64,000 bases of DNA from Liolophura sinensis. Lineage: Eukaryota; Mollusca; Polyplacophora; Chitonida; Chitonidae. Each line of letters begins with the position of its first letter. Within the stretch, counting starts at the first letter, position 1. The DNA is taken from the NCBI RefSeq assembly GCF_032854445.1, contig NC_088295.1, positions 312,501 to 376,500 of the forward strand, read 5' to 3'. Below, piece by piece: positions 4,471 through 62,460 of the stretch. The notes beneath the pieces are model-generated. The model was given only the letters and a program-made list of their open reading frames with translations. It did no database searches and had not been told where the DNA came from. A program made the translations under genes and the position numbers.

Positions 4471-4542
4471 GTGACATGATAATGATCTAAAGCATCACTG
4501 ACCAGTTGCATGGCAGTCATCTCCACCCACTGTCTGAAGTGA
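4471..4542 (-). pseudogene. duplicated 3' end of GFPT exon 6 with its splice donor
   Basis: This stretch repeats, with a few substitutions, the end of GFPT exon 6 (about 5962-6001) and the first roughly 35 intron bases (5930-5961). On the minus strand it reads WVEMTAMQL followed by GTCAGTGATGC, against LVEMTVMQL and GTCAGTGATGC in the real exon. It sits near the far end of the 19-bp array, so the array is bracketed by two copies of the same exon-intron junction. No splice acceptor is visible upstream, so it is probably not used as an exon. Confidence 0.85.
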
Positions 4543-4768
4543 CCCTGCTGGTCATGTGTGACACTACTGTACATGTGTGGCACTCCTGTACTGTACATGT
4601 GTGGCACTGATGTACATGTGAGACACTGCTGTACATGTGTGGCACTGCTGTACGTGTGTGGCACTACTGTACATGTGTGGCACTGCTGAACATGTGTGAC
4701 ACTGATGTACATGTGATACACTGCTGTACATGTGAGACACTGATGTACATGTGTGATGCTGCGGTACA

Positions 4769-5042
4769 TGAATTTATTTATTTATTTATTTGATTGGTGT
4801 TTCACGCCGTACTCAAGAATATTTCACTTAAATGACAACGGCAGCCAGCATTATGGTGGGAGAAAACTGGGCAGAGCCCGGAGGAAACCACGACCATCCG
4901 CAGGTTGCTGGCACATCTTCCGAAGTACGGCCGGAGAGGAAGCCAGCATGAGCTGGACTTGAACTCACAGCGACCGCATTGGTGAGAGACTCCTGGGTCA
5001 TTATGCTGAGCAAGCACGCTAACCGACTGAGCCACGGAGGCC
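4769..5042 (-). mobile_element. tRNA-derived SINE, family A, near full length
   Basis: On the minus strand the element starts GGGGCCTCCGTGGCTCAGTC (A-box-like TGGCTCAGTCGG), has a B-box-like GTTCAAGTCC, a conserved body containing CCACCATAATGCTGGC, and ends in a tail with ATTCTTGAGTACGGCGTGAA then a (TAAA)n-like run. I know this head, body and tail combination as a widespread mollusc SINE; the family name RUDI is a possible match that I cannot verify here. It is inserted inside the 19-bp array, so it is younger than at least part of that array. Confidence 0.85.
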
Positions 5043-5961
5043 CCCTGCTGTACATGAATGATAATGATGTACATGTGTGACACTGCTGTACATGTGTGGC
5101 ACTGCTGTACATGTGTGACACTGATGTACATGTGTGGTACTGCTGTACATGAATGATAATGATATACATGTGTGACACTGCTGTACATGAATGATAATGA
5201 TGTACATGTGTGACACTGATGTACATGTGTGGTACTACTGTACATGTGTGACACTGATGTACATGTGTGGTACTGCTGTACATGTGTGGCACTGATGTAC
5301 ATGTGTGGCACTACTGTTCATGTGTGGCACTGCTGTACATGTGTAACACTGATGTACATGTGTGGTATTGCTGTACATGTGTGACACTGCTGTACATGTG
5401 TGGTACTGCTGTACATGTGTGACACTGATGTACATGTGTGGCACTGCTGTACATGTGTGGAACTGCTGTACATGTGTGACACTGCTGTACATGTGTGACA
5501 CTGCTGTACGTGTGGCACTGCTGTACATGTGTGGCACTGCTGTACATGTATGACACTGCTGTACATGTGTGACACTGCTGTACATGTGTGACACTGCTGT
5601 ACATGTGTGGCACTCCTGTACATGTGTGGTACTGCTGTACATGTGTGACACTGCTGTACATGTGTGACACTGTTGTACATGTGTGACACTGATGTACATG
5701 TGGGATACTGCTGTACATGTGTGACACTGATGTACATGTGGGATACTGCTGTACATGTGTGATAATGCTGTACATGTGTGGTGCTGCTGTACATGTGTGA
5801 CACTGATGTACATGTGTGACACTGCTGTACATGTGTGACACTGCTGTACATGTGTGACACTGCTGTACATGTTTGACACTGATGTACATGTGGGATACTG
5901 CTGTACATGTGTGATAATGCTGTACATGTGTGAGATGATAATGATGTAAAGCATCACTGAC

Positions 5962-6090
5962 CAGTTGCATGACGGTCATCTCCACCAACTCTCTAAAGTT
6001 CTTGTCTTTGTTGTTGTCATACAGGTGCTTGATGAGCTTTGGGATGACCTCTGTGTCGGTTTCAGACTCAAACACAAAGTCTCTCGCTTC
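5962..6090 (-). CDS. GFPT coding exon 6 (glutaminase domain)
   Basis: Encodes 43 codons beginning EARDFVFESETDTEVIPKLI and ending VEMTVMQL. This matches the GFPT segment that follows the glutamine-binding loop (family pattern FESETDTE, then a LVE/QL stretch before EGAFAL). The acceptor is TTGTGACAG and the donor CTG/GTCAGT; both boundaries are phase 0. It joins exon 5 in frame. The next expected exon was not found to the left, so the gene probably continues outside the window. Confidence 0.93.
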
Positions 6091-6171: not shown

Positions 6172-7478
6172 TCCCATGGCATAACCAAACAAGACTGACC
6201 AAAAATAGCCTGATGACATTGGCATAACTAAACAAGACAGACCAAAACTAGCCTGATGACACTGGCATAACCAAACAAGACTGACCAAAAATAGCCTGAT
6301 GACACTGGCATAACTAAACAAGACTGACCAAAAATAGCCTGATGACATTGGCATAACCAAACAAGACTGACCAAAAATAGTCTGATGACATTTGCATAAC
6401 CAAACAAGACTGACCAAAAATAGCCTGATGACATTGGCATAACTAAACAAGACTGACTAAAAATAGCCTGATGACATTGGCATAACTAAACAAGACTGAC
6501 CAAAAATAGCCTGATGACATTGGCATAACTAAACAAGACAGACCAAAAATAGCATGATGACATTGGCATAACGAAATAAGACTGACCAAAAATAGTCTGA
6601 TGACATTGGCATAACCAAACAAGACTGACCAAAAATAGCCTGATGACATTGGCATAACCAAACAAGACTGACCAAAAATAGCCTGATGACATTGGCATAA
6701 CCAAACAAGACTGACCAGAAATAGTCTGATGACATTGGCGTAACCAAACAAGACTGACCAAAAATAGCCTGATGACATTGGCATAACCAAACAAGACTGA
6801 CCAAAAGTAGTCTGATGACATTGGCATAACTAAACAAGACTGACCAAAAATAGCCTGATGACATTGGCATAACTAACAAGACTGACCAAAAATAGCCTGA
6901 TGACATTGGCATAACTAAACAAGACTGACCAAAAATAGTCTTATGACATTGGCATAACTAAACAAGACTGACCAAAAATAGCCTGATGACATTGGCATAA
7001 CTAAACAAGACTGACCAAAAATAGTCTTATGACATTGGCGTAACCAAACAAGACTGACCAAAAATAGTCTGATGACATTGGCATAACCAAACAAGACTGA
7101 CCAAAAATAGTCTGATGACATTGGCATAACCAAACAAGACTGACCAAAAATAGTCTGATGACATTGGCATAACCAAACAAGACTGACCAAAAATAGTCTT
7201 ATGACATTGGCATAACTAAACAAGACTGACCAAAAATAGCCTGATGACATTGGCGTAACCAAACAAGACTGACCAAAAATAGTCTGATGACATTGGCGTA
7301 ACCAAACAAGACTGACCAAAAATAGTCTGATGACATTGGCATAACTAAACAAGACTGACCAAAAATAGCCTGATGACATTGGCATAACCAAACAAGACTG
7401 ACCAGAAATAGTCTGATGACATTGGCATAACCAACAAGACTGACCAAAAATAGTCTTATGAATGGCATAACTAAAAAA
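6172..7478. repeat. 43-bp minisatellite in GFPT intron 5, derived from the exon-5 junction
   Basis: About 30 tandem copies of a 43-bp unit (plus-strand core CAAGACTGACCAAAAATAGC) fill almost the whole intron. On the minus strand the unit aligns with the last 20 or so bases of exon 5 plus its donor and first intron bases: 34 of 40 positions agree by eye. The donor GTGAGT has become GTCAGT in the monomers. The array runs directly into the real exon-5 donor at 7485. Confidence 0.93.
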
Positions 7479-7485
7479 GACTCAC

Positions 7486-7544
7486 CAAGAACAGCTTAAT
7501 GACTTTGAAGTTGGTGATGATTCCATTGTGTACGACAATAAACT
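7486..7544 (-). CDS. GFPT coding exon 5 (glutaminase domain)
   Basis: A 59-base exon. After the G carried over from exon 4 it reads E-FIVVHNGIITNFKVIKLFL, matching the highly conserved GFPT segment [20 protein letters not shown] that forms part of the glutamine pocket. The acceptor is TTTCTCAG and the donor TTG/GTGAGT. It starts after one codon base and ends in phase 0, fitting exons 4 and 6 exactly. Its last bases are the template-like sequence of the 43-bp array that follows. Confidence 0.95.
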
Positions 7545-9319: not shown

Positions 9320-9445
9320 CGTGGGTTGGGTCCGATCGTTGTGGGTGACTGTTGACCATGGAAGGTGCTCCGTGTGTGGCCCATCGGGTGTGAGCAATTC
9401 CGCAGTGAACATCGTAGGTCATGTCTAGATTTAGGTCCTCGTGCA
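9320..9445 (-). CDS. GFPT coding exon 4 (glutaminase domain)
   Basis: A 126-base exon encoding [20 protein letters not shown] followed by [20 protein letters not shown], the GFPT catalytic-domain signature ([11 protein letters not shown]) whose Arg and His/Gly residues bind substrate glutamine. The acceptor is CTTGCTTCAG and the donor CACG/GTATTT. It takes a T from exon 3 and leaves a G completed by exon 5 (GAG, Glu), so the phases agree on both sides. Confidence 0.96.
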
Positions 9446-10200
9446 CTGAAGCAAGGAATAACAGCTCTTGTTTATTTCAATCATTTTGATTTGTCTTTGA
9501 TTGATCTAGGAACATTGGCACGTTTAACATTCAACAAGTGGCTTAGAATGTATTCCTAACTACTTACAACATGAAGGGTGGAAAGAATTAAAGATTCATG
9601 TTCAATGCATGACCATGGATATGCCTGACGTAATTTACACTGTACATAATATTTGTCCACTTATCAGTACCATGACAGTGGACATGCTGGCAGTGACTTA
9701 CCCAATACCTGTTCACTTATCAGTGCCATGACAGTGGACATGCTGGCAGTGACTTACCCAATACCTGTCCACATATCAGTGCCATGACAGTGGACATGCT
9801 GGCAGTGACTTACCCAATACCTGTTCACTTATCAGTGCCATGACAGTGGACATGCTGGCAGTGACTTACCCAATACCTGTTCACTTATCAGTACCATGAC
9901 AGTGGACATGCTGGCAGTGACTTACCCAATACCTGTCCACTTATCAGTGCCATGACAGTGGACATGCTGGCAGTGACTTACCCAATACCTGTTCACTTAT
10001 CAGTGCCATGACAGTGGACATGCTGGCAGTGACTTACCCAATACCTGTTCACTTATCAGTGCCATGACAGTGGACATGCTGGCAGTGACTTACCCAATAC
10101 CTGTTCACTTATCAGTGCCATGACAGTGGACATGCTGGCAGTGACTTACCCAATACCTGTTCACTTATCAGTACCATGACAGTGGACATGCTGACAGTGA

Positions 10201-11220
10201 CTTACCCAATACCTGTCCACTTATCAGTGCCATGACAGTGGATATGCTGGCAGTGACTTCCCTAATATCCGTTCACTTATTAGTGCCTTGACAGCAGATA
10301 TGCTGGCAGTGACTTACCTAATATCTGTTCACTTATCAGTGCCATGACAGTGGATATGCTGGTAGTGACTTACATAATACCTATTCACTTATCAGTGCTA
10401 TGACAGTGGATATGCTGGCAGTGACTTCCCTAATATCCGTGCACTTATTAGTGCCTTGACAGCAGATATGCTGGCAGTGACTTCCCTAATACCTGTTCGC
10501 TTATCACTGCCATGACAGTGGATATGCTGGTAGTGACTTACCCAATACCTGTTCACTTATCAGTACCATGACAGTGGATATGCTGGCAGTGACTACCTAA
10601 TACCTGTGCACTTATCAGTGCCATGACAGCGGATATGCTGGTAGTGACTTCCCTAATATCTGTTCACTTATCGGTGCCATGAGAGTGGATATACTGGTAG
10701 TGACTCACCTAATATCTGTCACCTATCAGTGCCATGACAGTAGATATACTGGCAGTGACTTACCCAATATCTGTGCACTTATCAATTCCATGACAGTGGA
10801 CATGCTGGTAGTGACTCACCTAATATCTGTTCACTTATCAGTGCCAAGACAGTGGATATGCTGGCAGTGACTCACCTAATATCCGTGCCCTCATCAGTGC
10901 CATGACAGTGGATATGCTGGCAGTGACTTACCTAATATCCGTGCACTTATCAGTGCCATGACAGTGGATATGCTGGTAGTGACTCACCTAATATCTGTTC
11001 ACTTATCAGTGCCAAGACAGTGGATATGCTGGCAGTGACTCACCTAATATCTGTTCGCTTATCAGTGCCATGAAAGTGGATAAGCTGACAGTGACTTATA
11101 TGTACCATATACCTGTTTATTTATCAGTGCCATAACAGTGGATACGCTGGCAGTGACTTACCTAATATCCGTACACTTATTAGTGCCATGACAGTGGATA
11201 CGCTGGCAGTGACTTACCCA
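10201..11220. repeat. higher-order block duplicated within the 56-bp array (copy 1)
   Basis: This block and 11549-12568 share the same order of monomer variants and are nearly identical at a constant 1348-base offset (24 monomers). They even produce identical spurious 63-residue frames at 10679-10870 and 12027-12218. This shows recent block-scale amplification inside the intron. Confidence 0.88.
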
Positions 11221-11548
11221 ATACCTGTTCACTTATCAGTGCCATGACAGTGGACATGCTGGCAGTGACTTACCCAATACCTGTCCATTTATCAGTGCCA
11301 TGACAGTGGACATGCTGGCAGTGACTTACCCAATACCTGTTCACTTATCAGTGCCATGACAGTGGACATGCTGGCAGTGACTTACCCAATACCTGTCCAC
11401 TTATCAGTGCCATGACAGTGGACATGCTGGCAGTGACTTACCCAATACCTGTTCACTTATCAGTGCCATGACAGTGGACATGCTGGCAGTGACTTACCCA
11501 ATACCTGTCCACTTATCAGTACCATGACAGTGGACATGCTGGCAGTGA

Positions 11549-12568
11549 CTTACCCAATACCTGTTCACTTATCAGTGCCATGACAGTGGATATGCTGGCA
11601 GTGACTTCCCTAATATCCGTTCACTTATCAGTGCCTTGACAGCAGATATGCTGGCAGTGACTTACCTAATATCTGTTCACTTATCAGTGCCATGACAGTG
11701 GATATGCTGGTAGTGACTTACATAATACCTATTCACTTATCAGTGCTATGACAGTGGATATGCTGGCAGTGACTTCCCTAATATCCGTGCACTTATTAGT
11801 GCCTTGACAGCAGATATGCTGGCAGTGACTTCCCTAATACCTGTTCGCTTATCAGTGCCATGACAGTGGATATGCTGGTAGTGACTTACCCAATACCTGT
11901 TCACTTATCAGTACCATGACAGTGGATATGCTGGCAGTGACTACCTAATACCTGTTCACTTATCAGTGCCATGACAGCGGATATGCTGGTAGTGACTTCC
12001 CTAATATCTGTTCACTTATCGGTGCCATGAGAGTGGATATACTGGTAGTGACTCACCTAATATCTGTCACCTATCAGTGCCATGACAGTAGATATACTGG
12101 CAGTGACTTACCCAATATCTGTGCACTTATCAATTCCATGACAGTGGACATGCTGGTAGTGACTCACCTAATATCTGTTCACTTATCAGTGCCAAGACAG
12201 TGGATATGCTGGCAGTGACTCACCTAATATCCGTGCCCTCATCAGTGCCATGACAGTGGATATGCTGGTAGTGACTTACCTAATATCCATGCACTTATCA
12301 GTGCCATGACAGTGGATATGCTGGTAGTGACTCACCTAATATCTGTTCACTTATCAGTGCCAAGACAGTGGATATGCTGGCAGTGACTCACCTAATATCT
12401 GTTCGCTTATCAGTGCCATGAAAGTGGATAAGCTGACAGTGACTTATATGTACCATATATCTGTTTATTTATCAGTGCCATAACAGTGGATACGCTGGCA
12501 CTGACTTACCTAATATCCGTACACTTATTAGTGCCATGACAGTGGATACGCTGGCAGTGACTTACCTA
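11549..12568. repeat. higher-order block duplicated within the 56-bp array (copy 2)
   Basis: Second copy of the block at 10201-11220, with the same variant order and only scattered substitutions. It lies next to the exon-3 junction. Confidence 0.88.
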
Positions 12569-12677
12569 ATATCCGTACACTTATCAGTGCCATGGCAGTG
12601 GATACGCTGGCAGTGACTTACCTAATATCCGTGCACTTATCAGTGCCATGACAGTGGATACACTGGCAGTGACTTAC

Positions 12678-12776
12678 ATGATATCTGTTCCTTTATCAGT
12701 GACACTTTGCCTTTGTTCTTGACCACTTTAATGGAATATGTTTCATCAGTGTCTTGTCCTATATCCACCCCAATTC
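12678..12776 (-). CDS. GFPT coding exon 3 (glutaminase domain)
   Basis: A 99-base exon reading (G)IGVDIGQDTDETYSIKVVK then NKGKVSLIKEQIS. This fits the variable loop and the strand around K-x-G-K-V that follow the YDSxG motif in GFPT proteins. The acceptor is TTGTCCTCCAG and the donor ATCAT/GTAAGT. It starts by completing the G left by exon 2 and ends with a single T completed by exon 4. The 24 bases at its 3' end recur in every unit of the 56-bp array that follows in the intron. Confidence 0.9.
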
Positions 12777-18752: not shown

Positions 18753-18860
18753 CAAAAGAATCATAACCTCTGTATTCGAGCTTTCTCACGCCACTGAAGA
18801 GAATTTCCAGAATTTCCTTCCTTGTTGCTGGTACCAAATGATTCAGATATGCAAATATAC
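18753..18860 (-). CDS. GFPT coding exon 2 (N-terminus of glutaminase domain)
   Basis: A 108-base exon reading (G)[18 protein letters not shown] then [18 protein letters not shown]. It matches the start of GFPT proteins (MCGIFAYLN, then L[12 protein letters not shown]). The acceptor is TCCTCTTCAG and the donor TTTTG/GTAAGA. Phases join exon 1 (ATGTGCG) and exon 3. One oddity: the usual Ala of YDSAG reads as Phe (TTT) here. Confidence 0.96.
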
Positions 18861-26625: not shown

Positions 26626-27141
26626 GATCACAATAGTAATATTCCACCATTGATGTCATGTCGGCATAACAGTGACCAAAAATTACAAAATTCGTGACCT
26701 ACATGTATATGTACTGTATTCTGTATTAAAATCACAAGGTACATGTTATTAAAATGTTAGGAGTGGTATCTCAAAAAAGTACTGCTTTTGGTGGATGTTC
26801 CATCGTTGATGAGCTGTGTGCATATTAATTACCATCAATTGTTTTGGCATTAGAATGGCGTTACTCTATGGATAATAGATGTGAAGGTATTTTCACCACC
26901 CAGCATCTTCGTCCTGGTGGTATTTAAATGGTCTGTGTTTTCCATTCATTATATGTCTTAAACTGATTACCCAGAGCTGTGTTAATAAGACCCTAAATGT
27001 GGATATCGACATGTTCGTATCTCTTCTAGCCACTCTCTAAGCAGCACTTCTATTTTGTGCTTGGTTTTTATGAAGGCAGGCACCAAATGGATCCTGTACT
27101 TGCAGCAGATGTACTAGTAATGGCTGTATCTATATTTACAG
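26626..27141. other. ZCCHC7 intron 1 with a dispersed-repeat fragment
   Basis: The stretch 26755-26845 (AGGAGTGGTATCTCAAAAAA, then TTCCATCGTTGATGAG and CATATTAATTACCATCAAT) is related to the copies at 40490-40870. The rest is unannotated intron. It ends in the acceptor TATATTTACAG. Confidence 0.55.
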
Positions 27142-27305
27142 GTGATGGACAGGACTGGTCACTGATTGATGAGGACATGCTATCCCAAGGGCCTGCGTCC
27201 ATCCCACCAAGGTACTACAGACCAGACCGTGTCAAACCTCTCAATATAAGGTGTCGTAACTGTAACGAGGTCGGGCACTTGTCCAAAATCTGCCCCAGAC
27301 CTAAG
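27142..27305 (+). CDS. ZCCHC7-like coding exon 2 with zinc knuckle 1
   Basis: Reads (G)DGQDWSLIDEDMLSQGP then RYYRPDRVKPLNIRCRNCNE, followed by VGHLSKICPRPK. It aligns with vertebrate ZCCHC7 around [40 protein letters not shown]. The knuckle is C-x2-C-x4-H-x4-C. The acceptor is TATTTACAG and the donor CCTAAG/GTAGGC. The first two bases complete the codon begun by exon 1, and the exon ends in phase 0. The GTG at 27057 upstream is an artefact of intron readthrough. Confidence 0.96.
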
Positions 27306-27817
27306 GTAGGCTATTGTATCAGTTGGGACATAAAATGGACAGTGTTTAGTTTTTTGTTGTTTAAAACTATTCACTGGGGGGTGCATGTAAAAGAGTTTCC
27401 AGATTTTGGATTGGTAAATCAAGGTTTATATTTCATCAATCACTGTAAGTACATCAAGGGTGTCCTAGGATAATAAATGGTTTTGTAGTTTTTTAAATTT
27501 TTGGGGCTAAGAAATTTCCCTCAACATATTACACATTGCTCAATCTTTTTTCTTGTTCTTGAAATGCATTTCATCAAAAGTTTGTGTATATCTTTATTGA
27601 GCTTTTGCACCTGACAAGTCCAAGTTTGGTAATGATTTGGGGATTTTTGTGCAGTTTTTGCAATTTGTCACAAAATTTAACACAGTACTTTCAAAAGTAT
27701 AGCACAGTTTGGTTTTTTAGCTGAGGCTTTAATGAAATAGAAACCTCTGTACACGACAGTAGACTTCTGTTTTATCTTTCAGAGTGTTTCATATTTTTTT
27801 ATTAACCTTTTCAACAG

Positions 27818-48721: not shown

Positions 48722-50249
48722 CTATCCAAAAAAAGAAACGCATAACCCTGTTTTTTGCGGAGGTGATGCAGTCTTTTCAATTATGCGTAACTAAATAAGA
48801 ATTGCTATTCTGCAAATATTTTTTACACAGATTAAGGAAGGGTCCATATCTAGACAACAAGGCCATCAACTTGAGGTAAGACACTCACAATGAGTCTACC
48901 ACTTGAGTGGAATGTCAGTATCTGTTGTGACCACCACGGGCACGAATAACAGTTCTGACAAGCCTTGTTATGGACTGGATGAGACGCTGGATAGAGGCCT
49001 GGGGAATGTTCTGCAACTCCTCCTGCAAACATGCAACTTGCTCTTGAAGCGTTTGGGGTTGAGGTTGACGTTGGCGTAGACGTCGATCAAGTTCATCCCA
49101 CAGATGCTCAATTGGGTTAAGATCCGGGGAACGGGACGCCCAGGGTAGCACATTTACATTGTTTTCGGCGAGGAAGTCCCTTGTGACACGTGCCGTGTGC
49201 GGTCTTGCGTTGTCCTGCTGGAACAACTCCCGCTGAACGTCAATGACAGGTAAGAGGTGTGGCTGCAGGATGGTGTCTCGGTAGCGTACAGCCGTAAGAT
49301 TTCCCTGAACGTGGACAAGATTTGTACGACCAGTATACGATATTGCTGCCCACATCATCACACTCCCTCCACCAAATCTGTCCACTTGGAGTACGCAGTT
49401 AGGGGCATAATGTTCGTGAGCACGTCTGTAAACCCGGTTTCTACCATCACGTCTCTGCAATAGGAATCTGGACTCATCACTGAACCAAATGCGTCGCCAG
49501 TTGCGTATATTCCATGCAGTCACGTTGTTACACCATCGGAGGCGATTGGCGCGATGGTGAGGACGCAGCACGATCCCAATATAGGGCCTCCTGGCTCTCA
49601 GTCCATGTTCCCTCAGCCTGTTCCGCACTGTCTGACCTGATATCCTCCTCAGTCCCGGTATGCTGGCTGCTGTGCTTTCAGCTGTTGCACAACGGTCACG
49701 CAAATGGAGGACCCTTATGTAGCGATCTTGGGCTGCTGTAGTGACACGTGGTCGACCTGAACGCCGACGGTCATTTGTTGTCCCAGTATTGTTGTAGCGG
49801 GCAGCAAGCCGTGAAATCGTGCTCTGGCTGACGTGTAGACGCCTAGAAATGGACGATTGGGACTCTTCAGCTTGAAGTCTTCCAATGGTAATATTTCTTG
49901 TGACAGTGTCAAGACGTGGCATGTTGAATCAGTTTCAAAACACCACTTGAAAGACGCCGATTTCCGGCCCGAAGTTGCGGTTTTATAGTCACACACTGCA
50001 TGCTTTCCATGCGTAAGTTCGGCGTGTAAGACTGCACGTGATGCAGTGTGGTGCTGTATTTTTTACTTCTTCCAAAAACGGCCTCCAAACTCAACATTTT
50101 CAACCAAGAAATGTTTTGAGGAATAAAATGTGTGCTAACTGTGACTATTAACAATATTAAAACACATTTTGCTCATGAAATGAAGACAAAATGTATTTAT
50201 TTCATTTTAAAATAAAACAAAACACATATGCGTTTCTTTTTTTGGATAG
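48722..50249. mobile_element. complete Tc1-like (DD34E) DNA transposon
   Basis: Ends CTATCCAAAAAAAGAAACGC ATA at 48722 and its inverse near 50227-50249; TA dinucleotides flank both ends (48720-48721 and 50250-50251), the Tc1/mariner target duplication. It contains one uninterrupted transposase ORF (48915-49922, minus). It lies inside the large intron of the FG-GAP-like gene, in the same orientation. Intact ends plus an intact ORF point to a recent insertion. Confidence 0.95.
48915..49922 (-). CDS. Tc1-like transposase, intact
   Basis: 335 residues, the usual Tc1 length. The N-terminal paired-like helix-turn-helix region includes ESQSSISRRLHVSQSTISRL (about 18-37) and a GRPR-type AT-hook (RRSGRPRVT, about 53-61). 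Two catalytic Asp are seen in WFSDESRF and FQQDNARPHTA, and the Glu in SPDLNPIEHLWDELDRR; exactly 34 residues separate the second Asp from the Glu (DD34E). The GGGSVMMWAAIS motif is also present. No stop or frameshift. It binds the element's inverted repeats and performs cut-and-paste transposition in the nucleus. ATG at 49920 is the natural start, just before the helix-turn-helix domain. Confidence 0.97.
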   Translation of the reverse strand: MPRLDTVTRNITIGRLQAEESQSSISRRLHVSQSTISRLAARYNNTGTTNDRRRSGRPRVTTAAQDRYIRVLHLRDRCATAESTAASIPGLRRISGQTVRNRLREHGLRARRPYIGIVLRPHHRANRLRWCNNVTAWNIRNWRRIWFSDESRFLLQRRDGRNRVYRRAHEHYAPNCVLQVDRFGGGSVMMWAAISYTGRTNLVHVQGNLTAVRYRDTILQPHLLPVIDVQRELFQQDNARPHTARVTRDFLAENNVNVLPWASRSPDLNPIEHLWDELDRRLRQRQPQPQTLQEQVACLQEELQNIPQASIQRLIQSITRLVRTVIRARGGHNRY

Positions 50250-50749: not shown

Positions 50750-52435
50750 AAGTCACAGAGCATGTACATCACAAGTGTAGACGATTTCAGTGTAACAGAT
50801 ACCCAGCATCGAGGTCACAAGGGTAAACAGTGTCAGTGTAACAGTCAGGTGGCATGAACGTCACAAGTGTAGACGATTTTAGTGTAACAGATACCCAGCA
50901 TCGAGGTCACAAGGGTAAACAGTGTCAGTGTAACAGTCAGGTAGCATGAATGTCACAAGTGTAGACGATTTCAGTGTAACAGATACCCAGCATCGAGGTC
51001 ACAAGGGTAAACAGTGTCAGTGTAACAGTCAGGTAGCATGAACGTCACAAGTGAAGACGATTTCAGTGTAACAGATACCCAGCATCGAGGTCACAAGGGT
51101 AAACAGTGTAAGTGTAACAGTCAGGTAGCATGAATGTCACAAGTGTAGACGATTTCAGTGTAACAGATACCCAGCATCGAGGTCACAAGGGTAAACAGTG
51201 TCAGTGTAACAGTCAGGTAGCATGAACGTCACAAGTGAAGACGATTTCAGTGTAACAGATACCCAGTATCGAGGTCACAAGGGTAAACAGTGTCAGTGTA
51301 ACAGTCAGGTAGCATGAACGTCACAAGTGTAGACGATTTCAGTGTAAAAGATACCCAGCATCGAGGTCACAAGGGTAAACAGTGTCAGTGTAACAGTCAT
51401 GTAGCATGAACGTCACAAGTGTAGACGATTTCAGTGAAACAGTCACGGAGCATGAACGTCACAAGTGTAGATGATTTCAGCGTAACGAAGAAGGAAAATG
51501 AACGTCACAAATGGAGACAATTTCAGTGTAAGAGAAGGGGAAATGAACGTCACAAGTGGGGACGATTTCAGTATAACAGATATCCAACATGGACGTCAGG
51601 GGGGTGTTTCTCAAATGGGACGTAACGTTACGCCAGCCTAATCACCATGACGTCCAATACTGACGGCATACGTCGCCTTTGCATGTGCAACCGGCGTAGC
51701 ATTACGTCCCCTTTTCGAAGCAGCCCCCAGAAGTGTGAACAATGTCAGTGTGTCAGTCACGGAGCATGAATGTCACAAGTGTAGATGGTTTCAGTGTAAA
51801 AATTACGGAGTTTGCACGTCACAAGCGTGGGCGATTTCAGTGTAAAAGATACCCAGCATGGACGTGACAAGTGTAGACAATTTTAGTGTAACAGATACCC
51901 AGCATGGACATGACAAGTGTTGACAATTTTAGTGTAAAGAACACGGAGTATCAACAGTGTAACAGACACGGAAAATGAACATCACAAGTGTAAACGATTA
52001 TGTTAAATGCCCCAGGTATAAACAATGTCAGAGTCACAGACACGAGGCATGAGTACCCCGTGTGTTAACGATGTCAGGGTCACAGACACGTATCATGAAT
52101 GTCCGTGTGTAAACGATGTCAGGGTTACAGACACGAAACATGCATAAATGCCCCGTCTGTAAACAATGTCGGTGTAAAAGGCATGCAACACGAGTCATAG
52201 GTGTAAACAATGTCAGTTGAACAGACGCGAAGCATGAAAGTCACAGATGTAAACAATGTCAGTCTTATAGACACGCAGCATAAATGACCCGTGTGTAAAC
52301 AATGTCTGTAAAAGAGACCCTATAAGTGCCATAGATATCACAATGTTAGTTGAACAGAGGCGCAGCATGAACGTCACAGATGTAAACAGTCTAATAGACA
52401 CGCAGGAGGAATGTCCTACATAAAGTTCATTTCCC
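50750..52435. repeat. 92-bp (2 x ~46) minisatellite
   Basis: Well-ordered from 50770 to 51430 as AACGTCACAAGTGTAGACGA, TTTCAGTGTAACAGATACCC, AGCATCGAGGTCACAAGGGT, AAACAGTGTCAGTGTAACAG in series, then increasingly diverged until the 60-bp array begins at 52425. A MITE is inserted at 51599-51728. Confidence 0.92.
51599..51728. mobile_element. MITE with ~36-bp inverted ends (GGGGG-type)
   Basis: The left end GGGGGGTGTTTCTCAAATGG GACGTAACGTTACGCC and the reverse complement of the right end (51693-51728) match over about 36 bases with some mismatches. The ends abut AG on both sides, consistent with a 2-base target duplication. GGGGGTGTTTC-type ends are known from several invertebrate DNA transposon groups, including ISL2EU-like elements; the assignment is tentative. 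It splits the 92-bp array. Confidence 0.8.
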
Positions 52436-55400
52436 CTGAAATACTCAGTATAAGTCTACACGGAGTTCAGTAGGCCTACATGAAGTTCATCTAATATGTA
52501 TAACTTAGTATAAGTCTACACGGAGTTCAGTAGGCCTACATGAAGTTCATTTCCTGTGTAATACTCAGTATAAGTCTGCACGGAGTTAAGAAGGCCTACA
52601 TGAAGTTCATTTCCTGTGTAATACTCGGTAGAGGTCTACACGGTGTTCAGTAGGCCTACATAAAGTTCATCTAATATGTATAACTTAGTATAAGTCTACA
52701 CGGAGTTCAGAAGGCCTACACGAAATTCATTTCCTGTGTAATAGTCAGTATAAGTCTACATGGATTTCAGTAGGCCTTAATGAAGTTTATTTTCTGTGTA
52801 ATACTCAGTATAAGACTACACGGAGATCAGTAGGCCTACATGAAGTTCATCTAATATGTATAACTTAGTATAAGTCTGCACGGAATTCAGTAGGCCTACA
52901 TGAAGTTCATATAATATGTATAACTTAGTATAGGTCTACACGGAGTTTAGAAGGCCTACATGAAGTTCATTTCCTGTGTAATACTCAGTATAAGTCTACA
53001 CGGAGATCAGTAGGCCTACATGAAGTTCATCTAATATGTATAACTTAGTATAAGTCTGCACGGAATTCAGTAGGCCTACATGAAGTTCATATAATATGTA
53101 TAACTTAGTATAGGTCTACACGGAGATCAGAAGGCCTACATGAAGTTCATTTCCTGTGTAATACTCAGTATAAGTCTACACCGATTTCAGTAGGCCTACA
53201 TGAAGTTCATTTCCCCTGCAATACTCAGTATAAGTCTACACGGGGTTCAGTAGGCCTACATGAAGTTCATCTAATATGTATAACTTAGTATAAGTCTACA
53301 CGGAGATCAGTAGGCCTACATGAAGTTCATCTAATACGTATAACTTAGTATAAGTCTGCACGGAATTCAGTAGGCCTACATGAAGTTCACTTCCTGTGTA
53401 ATGCTCAGTATAAGTCTGCACGGAGTTCAATAGGCCTACAAGAAGTTCATTTAATGTGTAATACTCAGACAAAGTCTACACATAGTTCATTAGGTCTACA
53501 TGAAGTTCATTTCCTGTGTAATACTCTATAAGTCTACACGGAGTTCAGTAGGCCTGCATGAAGTTCATTTCCTGTGTAATACTCAGTAAGTCTACACGGA
53601 GATCAGTAGGCCTACATGAAGTTCATTTCCTGTGTAATACTCAGTATAAGTCTACACGGAGTTCAGTAGGCCTACATGAAGTTCATTTCCTGTGTAATAC
53701 TCAGTATAAATCTACACGGAGTTGAGTACGCCTACATGAAGTTCATTTCCTGTGTAATATTCAGTAAGTCTACACGGAGATCAGTAGGCCTACATGCAGT
53801 TCATTTCCTGTGTAATACTCAGTATAAATCTACACGGAGTTGAGCAGGACTACATGAAGTTCATTTCCTGTGTAATACTCTATAAGTCTACACGGAGTTC
53901 AGTAGGCCTGCATGAAGTTCATTTCCTGTGTAATACTCAGTAAGTCTACACGGAGATCAGTAGGCCTACATGAAGTTCATTTCCTGTGTAATACTCAGTA
54001 TAAGTCTACACGGAGTTCAGTAGGCCTACATGAAGTTCATTTCCTGTGTAATACTCAGTATAAATCTACACGGAGTTGAGTACGCCTACATGAGGTTCAT
54101 TTCCTGTGTAATATTCAGTAAGTCTACACGGAGATCAGTAGGCCTACATGCAGTTCATTTCCTGTGTAATACTCAGTATAAATCTACACGGAGTTGAGCA
54201 GGACTACATGAAGTTCATTTCCTGTGTAATACTCAGTATAAGTCTACACGGAGTTCAGTAGGCCTACATGAAGTTCATCTCCTGTGTAATACTCAGTATA
54301 AGACTACACGGAGATCAGTAGGCCTACATGAAGTTCATTTCCTGTGTAATACTCAGTATAAGACTACACGGAGATCAGTAGGCCTACATGAAGTTCATTT
54401 CCTGTGTAATACTCAGTATAAGTCTACACGGAGTTCAGTAGGCCTACATGAAGTTCATCTCCTGTGCAATACTCAGTATAAGACTACACGGAGATCAGTA
54501 GGCCTACATGAAGTTCATCTCCTGTGTAATACTCAGTATAAGACTACACGGAGATCAGTAGGCCTACATGAAGTTCATCTCCTGTGTAATACTCAGTATA
54601 AGTCTACACGGAGATCAGTAGGCCTACATGAAGTTCATTTCCTGTGTAATACTCAGTATAAATCTACACGGAGATCAGTAGGCCTACATGAAGTTCATTT
54701 CCTGTGTAATACTCAGTATAAATCTACACGGAGTTAAGCAGGACTACATGAAGTTCATTTCCTGTGTAATACTCAGTAAGTCTACACGGAGATCAGTAGG
54801 CCTACATGAAGTTCATTTCCTGTGCAATACTCAGTATAAGTCTACACGGAGTTCAGAAGGCCTACATGAAGTTCATTTCCTGTGTAATACTCAGTATAAG
54901 TCTACACGGAGATCAGTAGGCCTACATGAAGTTCATTTCCTGTGTAATACTCAGTATAAGTCTACACGGAGTTCAGAAGGCCTACATGAAGTTCATTTCC
55001 TGTGTAATACTCAGTATAAGTCTACACGGAGTTCAGTAGGCCTACATGAAGTTCATTTCCTGTGTAATACTCAGTATAAATCTACACGGAGTTGAGTACG
55101 CCTACATGAAGTTCATTTCCTGTGTAATATTCAGTAAGTCTACACGGAGATCAGTAGGCCTACATGCAGTTCATTTCCTGTGTAATACTCAGTATAAATC
55201 TACACGGAGTTGAGCAGGACTACATGAAGTTCATTTCCTGTGTAATACTCAGTATAAGTCTACACGGAGTTCAGTAGGCCTACATGAAGTTCATCTCCTG
55301 TGTAATACTCAGTATAAGACTACACGGAGATCAGTAGGCCTACATGAAGTTCATTTCCTGTGTAATACTCAGTATAAGACTACACGGAGATCAGTAGGCC

Positions 55401-58400
55401 TACATGAAGTTCATTTCCTGTGTAATACTCAGTATAAGTCTACACGGAGTTCAGTAGGCCTACATGAAGTTCATCTCCTGTGCAATACTCAGTATAAGAC
55501 TACACGGAGATCAGTAGGCCTACATGAAGTTCATCTCCTGTGTAATACTCAGTATAAGACTACACGGAGATCAGTAGGCCTACATGAAGTTCATCTCCTG
55601 TGTAATACTCAGTATAAGTCTACACGGAGATCAGTAGGCCTACATGAAGTTCATTTCCTGTGTAATACTCAGTATAAATCTACACGGAGATCAGTAGGCC
55701 TACATGAAGTTCATTTCCTGTGTAATACTCAGTATAAATCTACACGGAGTTAAGCAGGACTACATGAAGTTCATTTCCTGTGTAATACTCAGTAAGTCTA
55801 CACGGAGATCAGTAGGCCTACATGAAGTTCATTTCCTGTGCAATACTCAGTATAAGTCTACACGGAGTTCAGAAGGCCTACATGAAGTTCATTTCCTGTG
55901 TAATACTCAGTATAAGTCTACACGGAGATCAGTAGGCCTACATGAAGTTCATTTCCTGTGTAATACTCAGTATAAGTCTACACGGAGTTCAGAAGGCCTA
56001 CATGAAGTTCATTTCCTGTGTAATACTCAGTATAAGTCTACACGGAGATCAGTAGGCCTACATGAAGTTCATTTCCTGTGTAATACTCAGTATAAGTCTA
56101 CACGGAGATCAGTAGGCCTACATGAAGTTCATTTCCTGTGTAATACTCAGTATAAGTCTACACGGAGTTCAGAAGGCCTACATGAAGTTAATCTCCTGTG
56201 TAATACCCAGTATAAGTCTGCACGGAGTTCAGTAGGCCTACATAAAGTTCATTTCCTTTGTAACACTTAGTAAGTCTACACGGGGTTCAGTAGGCCTACA
56301 CAAAGTTCATTCCCTGTGTAATACTCGGTATAAGTCTACACAGAGTTGAGTAGGCCTACATGAAGTTCATTTTCCCTGTAATAGGCAGTAAGCCTACACG
56401 GAGTTCAGAAGGCCTACATGAAATTCATTTCCTGTGTAATACTCAGTATAAGTGTACACGGAGTTCAGTAGGCCTACATGAAATTCATTTCCTGTGTAAT
56501 ACTCAGTATAAATCTACACGGATTTCAGCAGGCCTACATGAAGTTCATTTTCCCTGTAATACGCAGTAAGCCTACACGGAGTTCAGAAGGCCTACATTAA
56601 GTTCATTTTCTGTGTAATACTCAGTATAAGTCAGAACGGAGTTCAGTAGGCCTACATGAAGTTTATCTGCTGTGTAATACTTAGTAAGTCTACACGGATT
56701 TCAGTAGGCCTACATGAAGTTCATCTCCTGTGTAATACTCAGTATAAGACTACACGGAGATCAGTAGGCCTACATGAAGTTCATCTCCTGTGTAATACCC
56801 AGTATAAGACTACACGGAGTTCAGTAGGCCTACATGAAGTTCATTTCCTGTGTAATACTCAGTATAAGTCTACACGGAGTTCAGTAGGCCTACATGAAGT
56901 TCATCTCCTGTGTAATACTCAGCATAAGACTACACGGAGTTCAGTAGGCCTACATGAAGTTCATCTCCTGTGTAATACCCAGTATAAGACTACACGGAGA
57001 TCAGTAGGCCTACATGAAGTTCATCTCCTGTGTAATACCCAGTATAAGTCTACACGGAGTTCAGTAGGCCTACATGAAGTTCATTTCCTGTGTAATACTC
57101 AGTATAAGTCTGCACGGAGTTCAGTAGGCCTACATGAAGTTCATCTCCTGTGTAATACTCAGTATAAGTCTACATAGATTTCAGTAGGCCTACATGAAGT
57201 TTATTTCCCCTGTAATACTCAGTATAAATCTACACGGAGTTCAGTAGGCCTACATGAAGTTCTTCTAATATGTATAACTTAGTATAAGTCTACACGGAAT
57301 TCAGTAGGCCTACATGAAGTTCATTTCCTGTGTAATACTCAGTATAAGCCTGCACGGAGTTCAGTAGGCCTACATGAAGTTCATTTCCTTTGTAATACTC
57401 GGAATAAGTCTACACATAGTTCATTAGGTCTACATGAAGTTCATTTCCTGCGTAATACTCAGTATAAGTCTACACAGAGATCAGTAGACCTACATGAAGT
57501 TCATTTCCCCTGTAATACTCAGTAAGTCTGCACGGAGTTCAGTAGGCCTACATGAAGTTCATTTCCTGTGTAATACTCAGTATAAGTCTACACGGAGTTC
57601 AGCACGCCTACATGAAGTTCATTTCCAGTGCAATACTCAGTAAGTCTACACGGAGTTCAGTAGGCCTACATGAAGTTTATTTCCTGTGTAATACTCAGTA
57701 TAAGTCTACACGGAGTTCAGTAGGCCTACATGAAGTTCATTTCCCCTGTTATACACAGTATAAGTCTACACGGAGTTCAGTAGGCCTACATGAAGTTCAT
57801 TTCCTGTGTAATACTCAGTATAAGTCTACATGGATTTCAGTAGGCCTACATGAAGTTTATTTCCCCTGTAATACTCAGTATAAATCTACACGGAGTTCAG
57901 TAGGCCTACATGAAGTTCTTCTAATATGTATAACTTAGTATAAGTCTACACGGAATTCAGTAGGCCTACATGAAGTTCATTTCCTGTGTAATACTCAGTA
58001 TAAGCCTGCACGGAGTTCAGTAGGCCTACATGAAGTTCATTTCCTTTGTAATACTCGGAATAAGTCTACACATAGTTCATTAGGTCTACATGAAGTTCAT
58101 TTCCTGCGTAATACTCAGTATAAGTCTACACAGAGATCAGTAGACCTACATGAAGTTCATTTCCCCTGTAATACTCAGTAAGTCTGCACGGAGTTCAGTA
58201 GGCCTACATGAAGTTCATTTCCTGTGTAATACTCAGTATAAGTCTACACGGAGTTCTGCACGCCTACATGAAGTTCATTTCCAGTGCAATACTCAGTAAG
58301 TCTACACGGAGTTCAGTAGGCCTACATGAAGTTTATTTCCTGTGTAATACTCAGTATAAGTCTACACGGAGTTCAGTAGGCCTACATGAAGTTCATTTCC

Positions 58401-61400
58401 CCTGTTATACACAGTATAAATCTACACGGAGTTCAGTAGGCCTGCATGAAGTTCATCTAATATGTATAACTTAGTATAAGTCTACACGGAGTTCAGTAGG
58501 CCTACAAGAAGTTCATCTAATATGTATAACTTAGTATAAGTCTACACGGAGTTCAGTAGGCCTACATGAAGTTCATCTCCTGTGTAATACTCAGTATAAG
58601 TCTACACGGAGTTCAGTAGGCCTACATGTAGTTCATCTCCTGTGTAATACTCAGTATTAGTCTACATGGAGTTCAGTAGGCCTACATGAAGTTCATCTCC
58701 TGTGTAATACTCAGTATAAGTCTACACGGAGTTGAGTAGGCCTACATGAAGTTCATTTCCTGTGTAATACCCAGCATAAGTCTGCACATAGTTCAGTAGG
58801 CCTTCATGAAGTTCATTTCCTGTGTAATACTCAGTATAAATCTACACGGAGTTGAGCAGGACTACATGAAGTTCATTTCCCCTGTTATACACAGTATAAG
58901 TCTACACGGAGTTCAGTAGGCCTACAAGAAGTTCATTTTCTGTGTAATACTCAGTATAAGTCTACATGGATTTCAGTAGGCCTACATGAAGTTCACTTTC
59001 CCTGTAATACGCAGTATAAATCTACACGGAGTTCAGTAGGCCTGCATGAAGTTCATTTAATATGTATAACTTAGTATAAGTCTACACGGAGTTCAGTAGC
59101 CCTACAAGAAGTTCATCTAATATGTATAACTTAGTATAAGTCTACACGGAGTTCAGTAGGCCTACATAAAGTTCATCTCCTGTGTAATACTCAGTATTAG
59201 TTTACACGGAGTTGAGTAGGCCTACATGAAGTTCATCTCCTGTGTAATACTCAGTGAGTCTACACGGAGTTCAGTAGGCCTACAAGAAGTTCATTTCCTG
59301 TGTAATACTCAGTATAAGTCTGCATGGAGTTGAGTAGGCCTACATAAAGTTCACTTTCCATGTAATACGCAGTATAAGTCTACACGGAGTTCAGTAGGCC
59401 TACATGAAGTTCATCTCCTGTGTAATACTTAGTAAGTCTACACGGACTTCAGTAGGCCTACATGAAGTTCATTTCCTGTGTACTACTCAGTATAAGTCTG
59501 CACGGAGTTTAGAAGGCCTACATGAAGTTCATTTCCTGTGTAATACTCGATGTAAGTCTACACGGAGTTCAGTAGGCCTACATGAAGTTTATTTCTTGTG
59601 TAATACTCAGCATAAGTCTACACATAGTTCAGTAGGCCTACATGAAATTCATTTCCTGTGTAATACTCAGTATAAATCTACACGGAGTTGAGTAGGCCTG
59701 CATGAAGTTCATCTAATATGTATAACTTAGTATAAATCTACACGGAGTTCAGTAGGCCTACATGAAGTTCATTTCCTGTGTAATACTCAGTATAAGCCTG
59801 CACGGAGTTCAGTACGCCTACATGAAGTTCATTTCCTGTGTAATACTCAGTAAGTCTACACGGAGTTCAGTAGGCCTACATGAAGTTCATTTCCTGTGTA
59901 ATACTCAGTAAGTCTGCACGGAGTTCAGTAGGCCTACAAGAAGTTCATTTCCTTTGTAATACTCAGTATAAGTCTTCACAGAGTTTAGTAGGCCTACATG
60001 AAGTTCATCTCCTGTGTAATACTCAGTAAGTCTGCATGGGGTTGAGTAGGCCTACATGAAGTTCATCTCCTGTGTAATACTCAGTATAAGTCTGCACGGA
60101 GTTCAGTAGGCCTACATGAATTTCATTTCGTGTGTAATACTGAGTAAGTCTGCACGGATGTGAGTAGGCCAACATGAAGTTCATTTTCTGTGTAATACTT
60201 AGTATAAGTCTGCACGGAGTTCAGTAGGCCTACATGAAGTTTATCTGCTGTGTAATACTTAGTAAGTCTACACGGAGTTCAGTAGGCCTACATGAAGTTT
60301 ATTTCTTGTGTAATACTCAGCATAAGTCTACACATAGTTCAGTAGGCCTACATGAAATTCATTTCCTGTGTAATACTTAGTATAAATCTACACGGAGTTC
60401 AGTAGGCCTACATGAAGTTTATTTCCTGTGTAATACTCAGTGAGTCTGCACGGAGTTCAGTAGCCCTACAAGAAGTTCATCTAATATGTATAACTTAGTA
60501 TAAGTCTACACGGAGTTCAGTAGGCCTACATAAAGTTCATCTCCTGTGTAATACTCAGTATTAGTTTACACGGAGTTGAGTAGGCCTACATGAAGTTCAT
60601 CTCCTGTGTAATACTCAGTGAGTCTACACGGAGTTCAGTAGGCCTACAAGAAGTTCATTTCCTGTGTAATACTCAGTATAAGTCTGCATGGAGTTGAGTA
60701 GGCCTACATAAAGTTCACTTTCCATGTAATACGCAGTATAAGTCTACACGGAGTTCAGTAGGCCTACATGAAGTTCATCTCCTGTGTAATACTTAGTAAG
60801 TCTACACGGACTTCAGTAGGCCTACATGAAGTTCATTTCCTGTGTACTACTCAGTATAAGTCTGCACGGAGTTTAGAAGGCCTACATGAAGTTCATTTCC
60901 TGTGTAATACTCGATGTAAGTCTACACGGAGTTCAGTAGGCCTACAAGAAGTTCATTTCCTTTGTAATACTCAGTATAAGTCTTCACAGAGTTTAGTAGG
61001 CCTACATGAAGTTCATCTTCTGTGTAATACTCAGTAAGTCTGCATGGGGTTGAGTAGGCCTACATGAAGTTCATCTCCTGTGTAATACTCAGTATAAGTC
61101 TGCACGGAGTTCAGTAGGCCTACATGAATTTCATTTCGTGTGTAATACTGAGTAAGTCTGCACGGATGTGAGTAGGCCTACATGAAGTTCATTTTCTGTG
61201 TAATACTCAGTATAAGTCTGCACGGAGTTCAGTAGGCCTACATGAAGTTTATCTGCTGTGTAATACTTAGTAAGTCTACACGGAGTTCAGTAGGCCTACA
61301 TGAAGTTTATTTCTTGTGTAATACTCAGCATAAGTCTACACATAGTTCAGTAGGCCTACATGAAATTCATTTCCTGTGTAATACTTAGTATAAATCTACA

Positions 61401-62460
61401 CGGAGTTCAGTAGGCCTACATGAAGTTTATTTCCTGTGTAATACTCAGTGAGTCTGCACGGAGTTCAGTAGGCCTACATGAAGTTTATTTCCTGTGTAAT
61501 ACTCAGTATAAGTCTACACGGAGTTCAGAAGGCCTACAAGAAGTTCATTTCCTGTGTAATAGTCAGTATAAGTCTACACGGAGTTCAGAAGGCCTACAAG
61601 AAGTTCATTTCCTGTGTAATACTCAGTATAAGTCTACACGGAGTTCAGTAGGCCTACATGAAGTTCATTTCCTGTGTAATACTCAGTATAAGTCTACACG
61701 GAGTTCAGAAGGCCTAAAAGAAGTTCATTTCCTGTGTAATACTCAGTATAAGTCTTCACAGAGTTTAGTAGGCCTACATGAAGTTCATCTCCTGTGTAAT
61801 ACTCAGTAAGTCTGCATGGAGTTGAGTAGGCCTACATGAAGTTCATCTCCTGTGTAATACTCAGTATTAGTTTACACGGAGTTGAGTAGGCCTACATGAA
61901 GTTCATCTCCTGTGTAATACTCAGTAAGTCTGCATGGAGTTGAGTAGGCCTACATGAAGTTCATCTCCTGTGTAATACTCAGTAAGTCTGCATGGAGTTG
62001 AGTAGGCCTGCATGAAGTTCATCTCCTGTGTAATACTCAGTATAAGTCTGCACGAAGTTCAGAAGGCCTACATGAAATTGATCTCCTGCGTAATACTTCC
62101 CAAGACTACTGGGAGTTTATCCCCTGTGTAATACTTTGTAGGCCCACATAAAGTTCATCTCATGTGTGATAATTAGTAGGTTTACACGCAGTTCGTCCTT
62201 GTGTCATTCTTAGCAGATTTACACGGAGTTCATCTCTTGTGTAATACTGAGCAGGTCAACACGGAGTTCATCTCTTGTGTAATACTGAGCAGGTCAACAC
62301 GGAGTTTATCTCTTGTGTAATACTGAGCAGGTCAACACGGAGTTCATCCCCTGTAAAATTCTTAGCAGGTAAACACGGAGATCATCCCCTGTGCAATATT
62401 TAGAAGGTCTACACGGAGTTCAGTAGGCCTACATGAAGTTCATCTCCTGTGAAACACTTA
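52425..62460. repeat. 10-kb array of a 60-bp unit in the intron of the FG-GAP-like gene
   Basis: Roughly 165-170 copies of AGGCCTACATGAAGTTCATT, TCCTGTGTAATACTCAGTAT, AAGTCTACACGGAGTTCAGT, with a 58-base variant lacking two bases (CAGTAAGTC) and a CTAATATGTATAACTTAG variant. Sixty is divisible by three, which explains the plus-strand frames of up to 188 codons (HEVHFLCNTQYKSTRSSVGL period of 20 residues); these are not genes. Multi-unit blocks are duplicated: about 54060-54770 and 55075-55785 (offset 1016), 57240-57770 and 57896-58426 (offset 656), and 59080-59560 and 60444-60924 (offset 1364). Confidence 0.97.

Follow-up and report, generated by a model that had tools for sequence, protein, structure and literature searches.

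The stretch analysed here, called the window throughout, comprises 64,000 nucleotides of the genome of the chiton Liolophura sinensis (C1:312501-376500, from a 609-Mb assembly), and the region examined was extended beyond it to C1:202501-466500 (264 kb joined). The minus-strand gene of the window is GFPT: a probe made of exons 3 and 4 matches human GFPT1 structures, and the gene model (exons 1-18; 1980 nt, 660 codons) is open throughout, with no internal stop, and identical over all 660 residues to protein P0001, named by NCBI as Liolophura GFPT isoform X1. Exon 1 is a candidate only, placed by its ATGTGCG/GTAAGA motif (a slash marks the splice junction), and the model stops at exon 18, exon 19 not having been located. 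Because P0001 is identical to a model that uses exon-adjacent donors, the donor of exon 3, TCAT/GTAAGTC, is, judged from the sequence, the annotated one. Behind it, in intron 3, lies the subject of this report, a 56-bp tandem array whose unit straddles the splice junction itself. The array and the exons around it, in positions of the window, are as follows.

12678..12776, minus strand: GFPT exon 3, 99 nt, ending TCAT/GTAAGTC, set by the open frame of exons 1-18 and the identity to P0001.
12678..12701, minus strand: last 24 nt of exon 3, the exonic part of array unit 0 (from the unit alignment and the start given by Tandem Repeats Finder, TRF, at -24 from the donor).
9643..12701, minus strand: the 56-bp array of intron 3, made up of the exon unit and 54 copies; every unit combines 24 nt from the exon with 32 nt from the intron.
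9320..9445, minus strand: GFPT exon 4, the downstream border of intron 3.
18753..18860, minus strand: GFPT exon 2, from the gene model.

TRF describes the array as having a period of 56, 54.5 copies and a start 24 nt within exon 3; splitting it into units yields 55, that is, the exon unit and the 54 copies that follow it in this assembly. The junction origin of the copies is directly visible when all units are aligned, the exon-3 unit agreeing with the copy consensus at 20/24 exonic and 15/15 first intronic positions (35/39 across the junction) and at 30/32 positions over the whole intronic part. An earlier note on this DNA, made from the letters alone, had reported this 35/39 match, about 54 copies behind the real junction and an origin of the satellite from the exon junction, and on all three the alignment of the units and the array edge 24 nt inside the exon agree with it. 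Its interval, 9655..12776, does capture the right array, the errors being that the array ends at about 9643 and that the interval takes in the whole of exon 3. An 81-nt probe, in a search that skips very common words, gave at least 52 matches, all in this array.

Read ungapped, the donor hexamers of the 54 copies are GTAAGT (31), GTGAGT (10), GGAAGT (8), GTAGTC (2), GTACAT (1), GTACAG (1) and ATAAGT (1); an alignment that bridges insertions in units 4 and 54 raises the first count to 33. Intact GTAAGT or GTGAGT is thus present in 41/54 copies, which is the majority that had been claimed, and GT is retained at the donor position in 45/54, in keeping with the description of the copies as decoy exon-end and donor modules lying behind the authentic donor.

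The match between junction and array stands far above chance. The exon-3 junction scores 79 against the array, where the best of 300 dinucleotide shuffles reaches 26. Among the 11 junctions of the window, each compared with arrays and represented by its two best of 16, exon 3 (79) and exon 5 (50) score highest, both with their own arrays, the highest other score being 21. The comparison was then made across the 17 introns between exons 1 and 18: each of the 17 donors (30 nt of exon plus 15 nt of intron) was scored on its own intron, on the 16 others and on 100 shuffles, and the 17 acceptors were handled in the same way. Seven of the 17 donors (exons 3, 5, 6, 10, 11, 15 and 16) prove to be copied in their own intron, with scores of 39-90; over all 17, shuffle maxima are <=28 and other-intron maxima <=26. 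The ten remaining donors score <=20 against their own introns, and for exon 2 no copies of the donor were found in intron 2. Acceptors, too, score <=20 against their own introns, with the exception of exon 8; that of exon 4, at the far end of intron 3, scores 16, under its shuffle maximum of 20.

These comparisons bear on the simplest alternative, namely that the array is a generic intronic satellite that resembles the exon end by chance or through convergence towards the splice-site consensus. Donor hexamers alone would indeed match by chance, and the exonic half of exon 5 on its own does not rise above its shuffles. Against this, the exonic half of exon 3 matches without help from the intron (20/24; score 33 versus a shuffle maximum of 29), the exonic halves of exons 6, 10, 11, 15 and 16 do so at 41-60 versus shuffles <=28, and junctions do not cross-match other introns above 26. 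We consider coincidence extremely improbable.

Within the array, units 3-26 reappear as units 27-50 in the unit alignment, read by eye, pointing to a second-order duplication of ~1.35 kb. So nearly identical a block could be the product of mis-assembly, and one might ask whether collapsed or expanded reads made the copies altogether. Individual copies differ from one another, however, arrays of different sequence sit at many junctions, and the 264 kb joined contains zero Ns, so that an assembly artefact has next to no probability as the source of the array. The exact copy number in intron 3 is nonetheless uncertain.

Here, too, a second case in the window deserves description, along with a duplicated exon end, neither of which figures in the earlier note.

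7486..7544, minus strand: GFPT exon 5, 59 nt, ending TTCTTG/GTGAGT; absent from the isoform X2 protein P0002.
6177..7507, minus strand: 43-bp array of intron 5, the second case in the window, beginning about 22 nt within exon 5; 30 copies.
5962..6090, minus strand: GFPT exon 6, ending CAACTG/GTCAGT.
4503..4540, minus strand: one extra copy of the terminal 38 nt of exon 6, with its donor following (53 aligned positions, 91% identity).
4539-4770 and 5045-5933, minus strand: 19-bp arrays of intron 6, of intronic unit, between the two exon-6 ends.

All 30 intron-5 copies carry GTCAGT (28) or GTCTGT (2) at the donor position, as compared with GTGAGT at the real exon-5 donor. Exons 6 and 11 have one further copy each, and the units in introns 5, 10, 15 and 16 measure 43, 34, about 65 and 100 bp, respectively. 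The exon-6 copy sits at the distal end of the 19-bp arrays, an arrangement suggestive of a 19-bp repeat that expanded inside a longer initial duplication; the insert separating these arrays resembles a tRNA-derived short interspersed nuclear element.

The acceptor of exon 8 scores 31 against its own intron, where shuffles reach at most 24; taken by itself, the exonic half gives 16, less than its shuffles. TRF places a 42-bp array in intron 7 that extends 19 nt into exon 8, and exon 8 is preceded by copies with TGCAG/ACNNNACAGCCCTGTG-like sequence. The affected junctions of GFPT therefore number 7/17 donors and 1/17 acceptors, or 8/34 tested, a recurrence that we observe directly in the same gene.

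Junction copies are found outside GFPT as well. Among 138 kinase-domain matches, a sample of 40 short ones (<=345 nt, likely internal exons) was compared with their own flanks, an exon being counted if its score exceeded the shuffle maximum by >6 and an array overlapped the match. Four of the 40 qualify, two on the acceptor side (L032, with a short stretch of exon, by eye some 14 nt, and L034) and two on the donor side (L045 and L054). The other 36 fall below this threshold, including three slightly above their shuffles that were left uncounted (L038, 30 vs 27; L052, 26 vs 22; L062, 24 vs 23). In a CCT gene, exon 7 has a 109-bp unit on the donor side with 93 exonic nt, while 8 other tested exon matches are negative; this gene was picked for its visible repeated exon matches and is not an unbiased sample. 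A rule confined to donors was dropped in view of the TRF acceptor case in GFPT intron 7 and the two acceptors among the kinase exons. Pooled, donors outnumber acceptors by 10 to 3 (binomial P = 0.09, CCT donor case included); at that P value, and with the CCT case preselected, no genome-wide donor bias is claimed.

Might the array instead be the leftover of intron birth, the intron having arisen when an exonic AGGT segment was duplicated in tandem, as in Rogers-type gain? For the globins of amphioxus, it has been proposed that mirages, the exon-intron boundary minisatellites to which we return below, give rise to new introns (PMC3087553). Intron gain of this kind would have the intron absent beforehand. 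A GFPT paralogue located at C1:45.05-45.08 Mb has introns at the same positions, by eye, as those after exons 3, 5, 15 and 16 (4/4 donors tested), and the first 400-600 nt after these four donors contain neither an array >60 bp nor a junction copy that outscores shuffles (4/4), an absence that is itself an observation. Because the paralogue shares the intron positions without arrays in those first 400-600 nt, the introns after exons 3, 5, 15 and 16 are, on this comparison, older than their arrays; birth by duplication is disfavoured for all four and strikes us as very unlikely. As a separate matter, two adjoining parts of the paralogue, C1:45049261-45049440 and 45050069-45050245, both match the same late stretch of protein P0013 (59% and 93% identity), perhaps a duplicated exon.

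The strength of the splice sites raises a further question. The real exon-3 donor, CAT/GTAAGT, pairs with U1 at -5.5 kcal/mol, while the 41 GTAAGT or GTGAGT copies average -10.2 kcal/mol, and 41 of the 45 GT-bearing decoys bind U1 more strongly than the real donor. It could be supposed, then, that the decoys are functional, competing with the real donor or holding U1 and so determining how much productive GFPT mRNA is made, through poison splicing or U1 telescripting. A transcript reading past exon 3 runs into a stop at +35; because this precedes the first decoy donor at +56, any decoy use in intron 3 would be unproductive, as a regulatory role would have it. Also in its favour, 2/11 copies in intron 10 (7 equal) and the single copy in intron 11 exceed the real donor in strength, and isoform X2, P0002, skips exon 5, the exon preceding the intron-5 array, although this may be unrelated to the array. 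On the other side, none of the copies is stronger in intron 5 (24/24 scored copies weaker), intron 16 (0/12; 3 equal) or intron 15 (0/18; 8 equal), and the single copy in intron 6 is equal to its real donor; like arrays are present in kinase and CCT genes; and the decoy donor columns of intron 3, +1 to +6, have conservations of 0.98, 0.85, 0.78, 1, 1 and 1 (mean 0.94), the same figure as for the other intronic columns (mean 0.94). Such equal conservation favours passive copies over kept decoys, some use of which may still occur, and a functional role appears improbable to us.

With regard to the annotated products, P0001 equals the model with exon-adjacent splice sites, and P0002 lacks exon 5. 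The latter is consistent with splicing of exon 4 directly to exon 6 and with translation beginning at an ATG of exon 4.

The explanation that we favour, and regard as very probable, is that the intron-3 array is a mirage, that is, a minisatellite derived from tandem duplication across the splice junction of an older intron and kept intronic. A founding duplication would have spanned the exon 3/intron 3 junction, taking in 24 nt of exon and 32 nt of intron, within an intron that already existed. Growth would have proceeded by slippage and unequal exchange, probably with one event that duplicated about 24 units (~1.35 kb). Exon definition would favour in vivo the site that directly abuts the real exon, whether the 5'-most donor or the 3'-most acceptor; the array would be tolerated because that exon-adjacent site is used and the copies all remain intronic. 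Occasional use of a decoy would bring in a stop codon or frameshift, and the transcript would presumably be removed by nonsense-mediated decay.

Several points weigh against this explanation. A pure strength rule, applied to the U1 pairing energies of intron 3, would predict decoy use there. The exonic half of exon 5 alone scores 19 where shuffles reach 23, and the case of exon 5 rests on the joint match of exon and intron and on the array start 22 nt within the exon. The placement of arrays is also uneven: 31 arrays of at least 100 bp are spread over 14/17 GFPT introns, in 12 of which the nearest array has the donor rather than the acceptor as its closer splice site, and donor-crossing arrays number 6 where 1.46 are expected (simulated P = 0.0026), acceptor-crossing ones 1 under the same expectation. 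The null used is a crude one, with a uniform founding unit, introns minus their arrays and a guessed ancestral intron length; because donor-crossing arrays exceed it, seeding at donors may not be random. Finally, the comparison is confined to this one species.

A bolder version may be sketched, which we put forward as a conjecture and think rather unlikely. Boundary-seeded satellites could enlarge introns throughout the genome in chitons, preferentially at donors owing to commitment to the donor nearest the exon, with the GFPT decoys partly used and array length tuning the unproductive share of transcripts, to an extent that would vary between individuals.

Elsewhere in the window, a 9.7-kb array of 162 copies of a 60-bp unit lies upstream of exon 1 (52415-62097), with further arrays upstream of GFPT exon 1 at 25.9-62 kb. 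A 335-residue open frame at 48915-49922 has DDE_3 and HTH_Tnp_Tc3_2 matches, as for a Tc1-like transposase, and open frames at 2178-2495 and 27057-27473 have zf-BED and zf-CCHC matches and are likely remnants of mobile elements.

It had been suggested in the earlier note that no satellite class of exon-junction origin had been described. This is not supported. The mirages of amphioxus are presented in two papers as exon-intron boundaries duplicated in the manner of minisatellites, in Adh3, troponin C, the globins BflGb6 and BflGb9, and PGBD5, affecting both boundary types and said to leave regular splicing undisturbed (PMC3087553; PMC3902484). Human cases are reported as well, with 27 intron modifications via tandem repeats at exon-intron boundaries, in genes within segmental duplications (PMC2812944). 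These resemble the chiton arrays as minisatellites across exon-intron borders. The human repeats have units of mean 30 bp, x4, and can form novel introns, unlike the chiton, whose four checked introns predate the arrays and whose annotated protein shows no effect of them. Tandem genomic duplication as a mode of intron gain (PMC4974935, and the Rogers model by way of PMC3087553) likewise involves tandem duplication with splice sites; the difference from PMC4974935 is that no new intron results here, the paralogue having the four checked introns. The dual-specific AGGT sites of polyubiquitin UBC are again tandem splice-competent motifs (PMC10809524); they bound coding monomers and are used, whereas the chiton copies are intronic and at most potential splice sites. 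A repeat in the sea bream myostatin intron was considered as a precedent and set aside, since the section available does not state that exon sequence lies in the repeat (PMC3045353).

The likeness to mirages extends to the details. The unit joins exon to adjoining intron (24 + 32 nt, starting at -24), a splice signal is carried by many copies and not all (GT in 45/54), and both 5' and 3' boundaries are affected (7 donors and 1 acceptor in GFPT; 2 + 2 among the kinase exons). The unit length of 56 bp is within the amphioxus ranges (10-72 bp in Adh3, 150-160 bp in the globins), the 100 bp of intron 16 falling between them. The intron-3 array is thus real, well above chance, an instance of a recurring pattern, and of an already named kind. 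No report of mirages in chitons or other molluscs was found in a literature search that misses most subscription papers. As far as searched, what is new is the phylum, the copy number (54 in one intron, as opposed to 3 or 6 in BflGb6), the proportion of tested junctions that are affected within a single gene (8/34), and the inverted donor strengths of intron 3, where the decoys are mostly the stronger at U1 pairing. With dozens of stronger decoys behind a weak authentic donor, the intron is a natural construct for a direct test of splice-site choice, and boundary arrays suggest a simple route of intron growth. The two mirage papers cover a handful of amphioxus genes; the chiton sample extends the phenomenon to one heavily affected gene and others.
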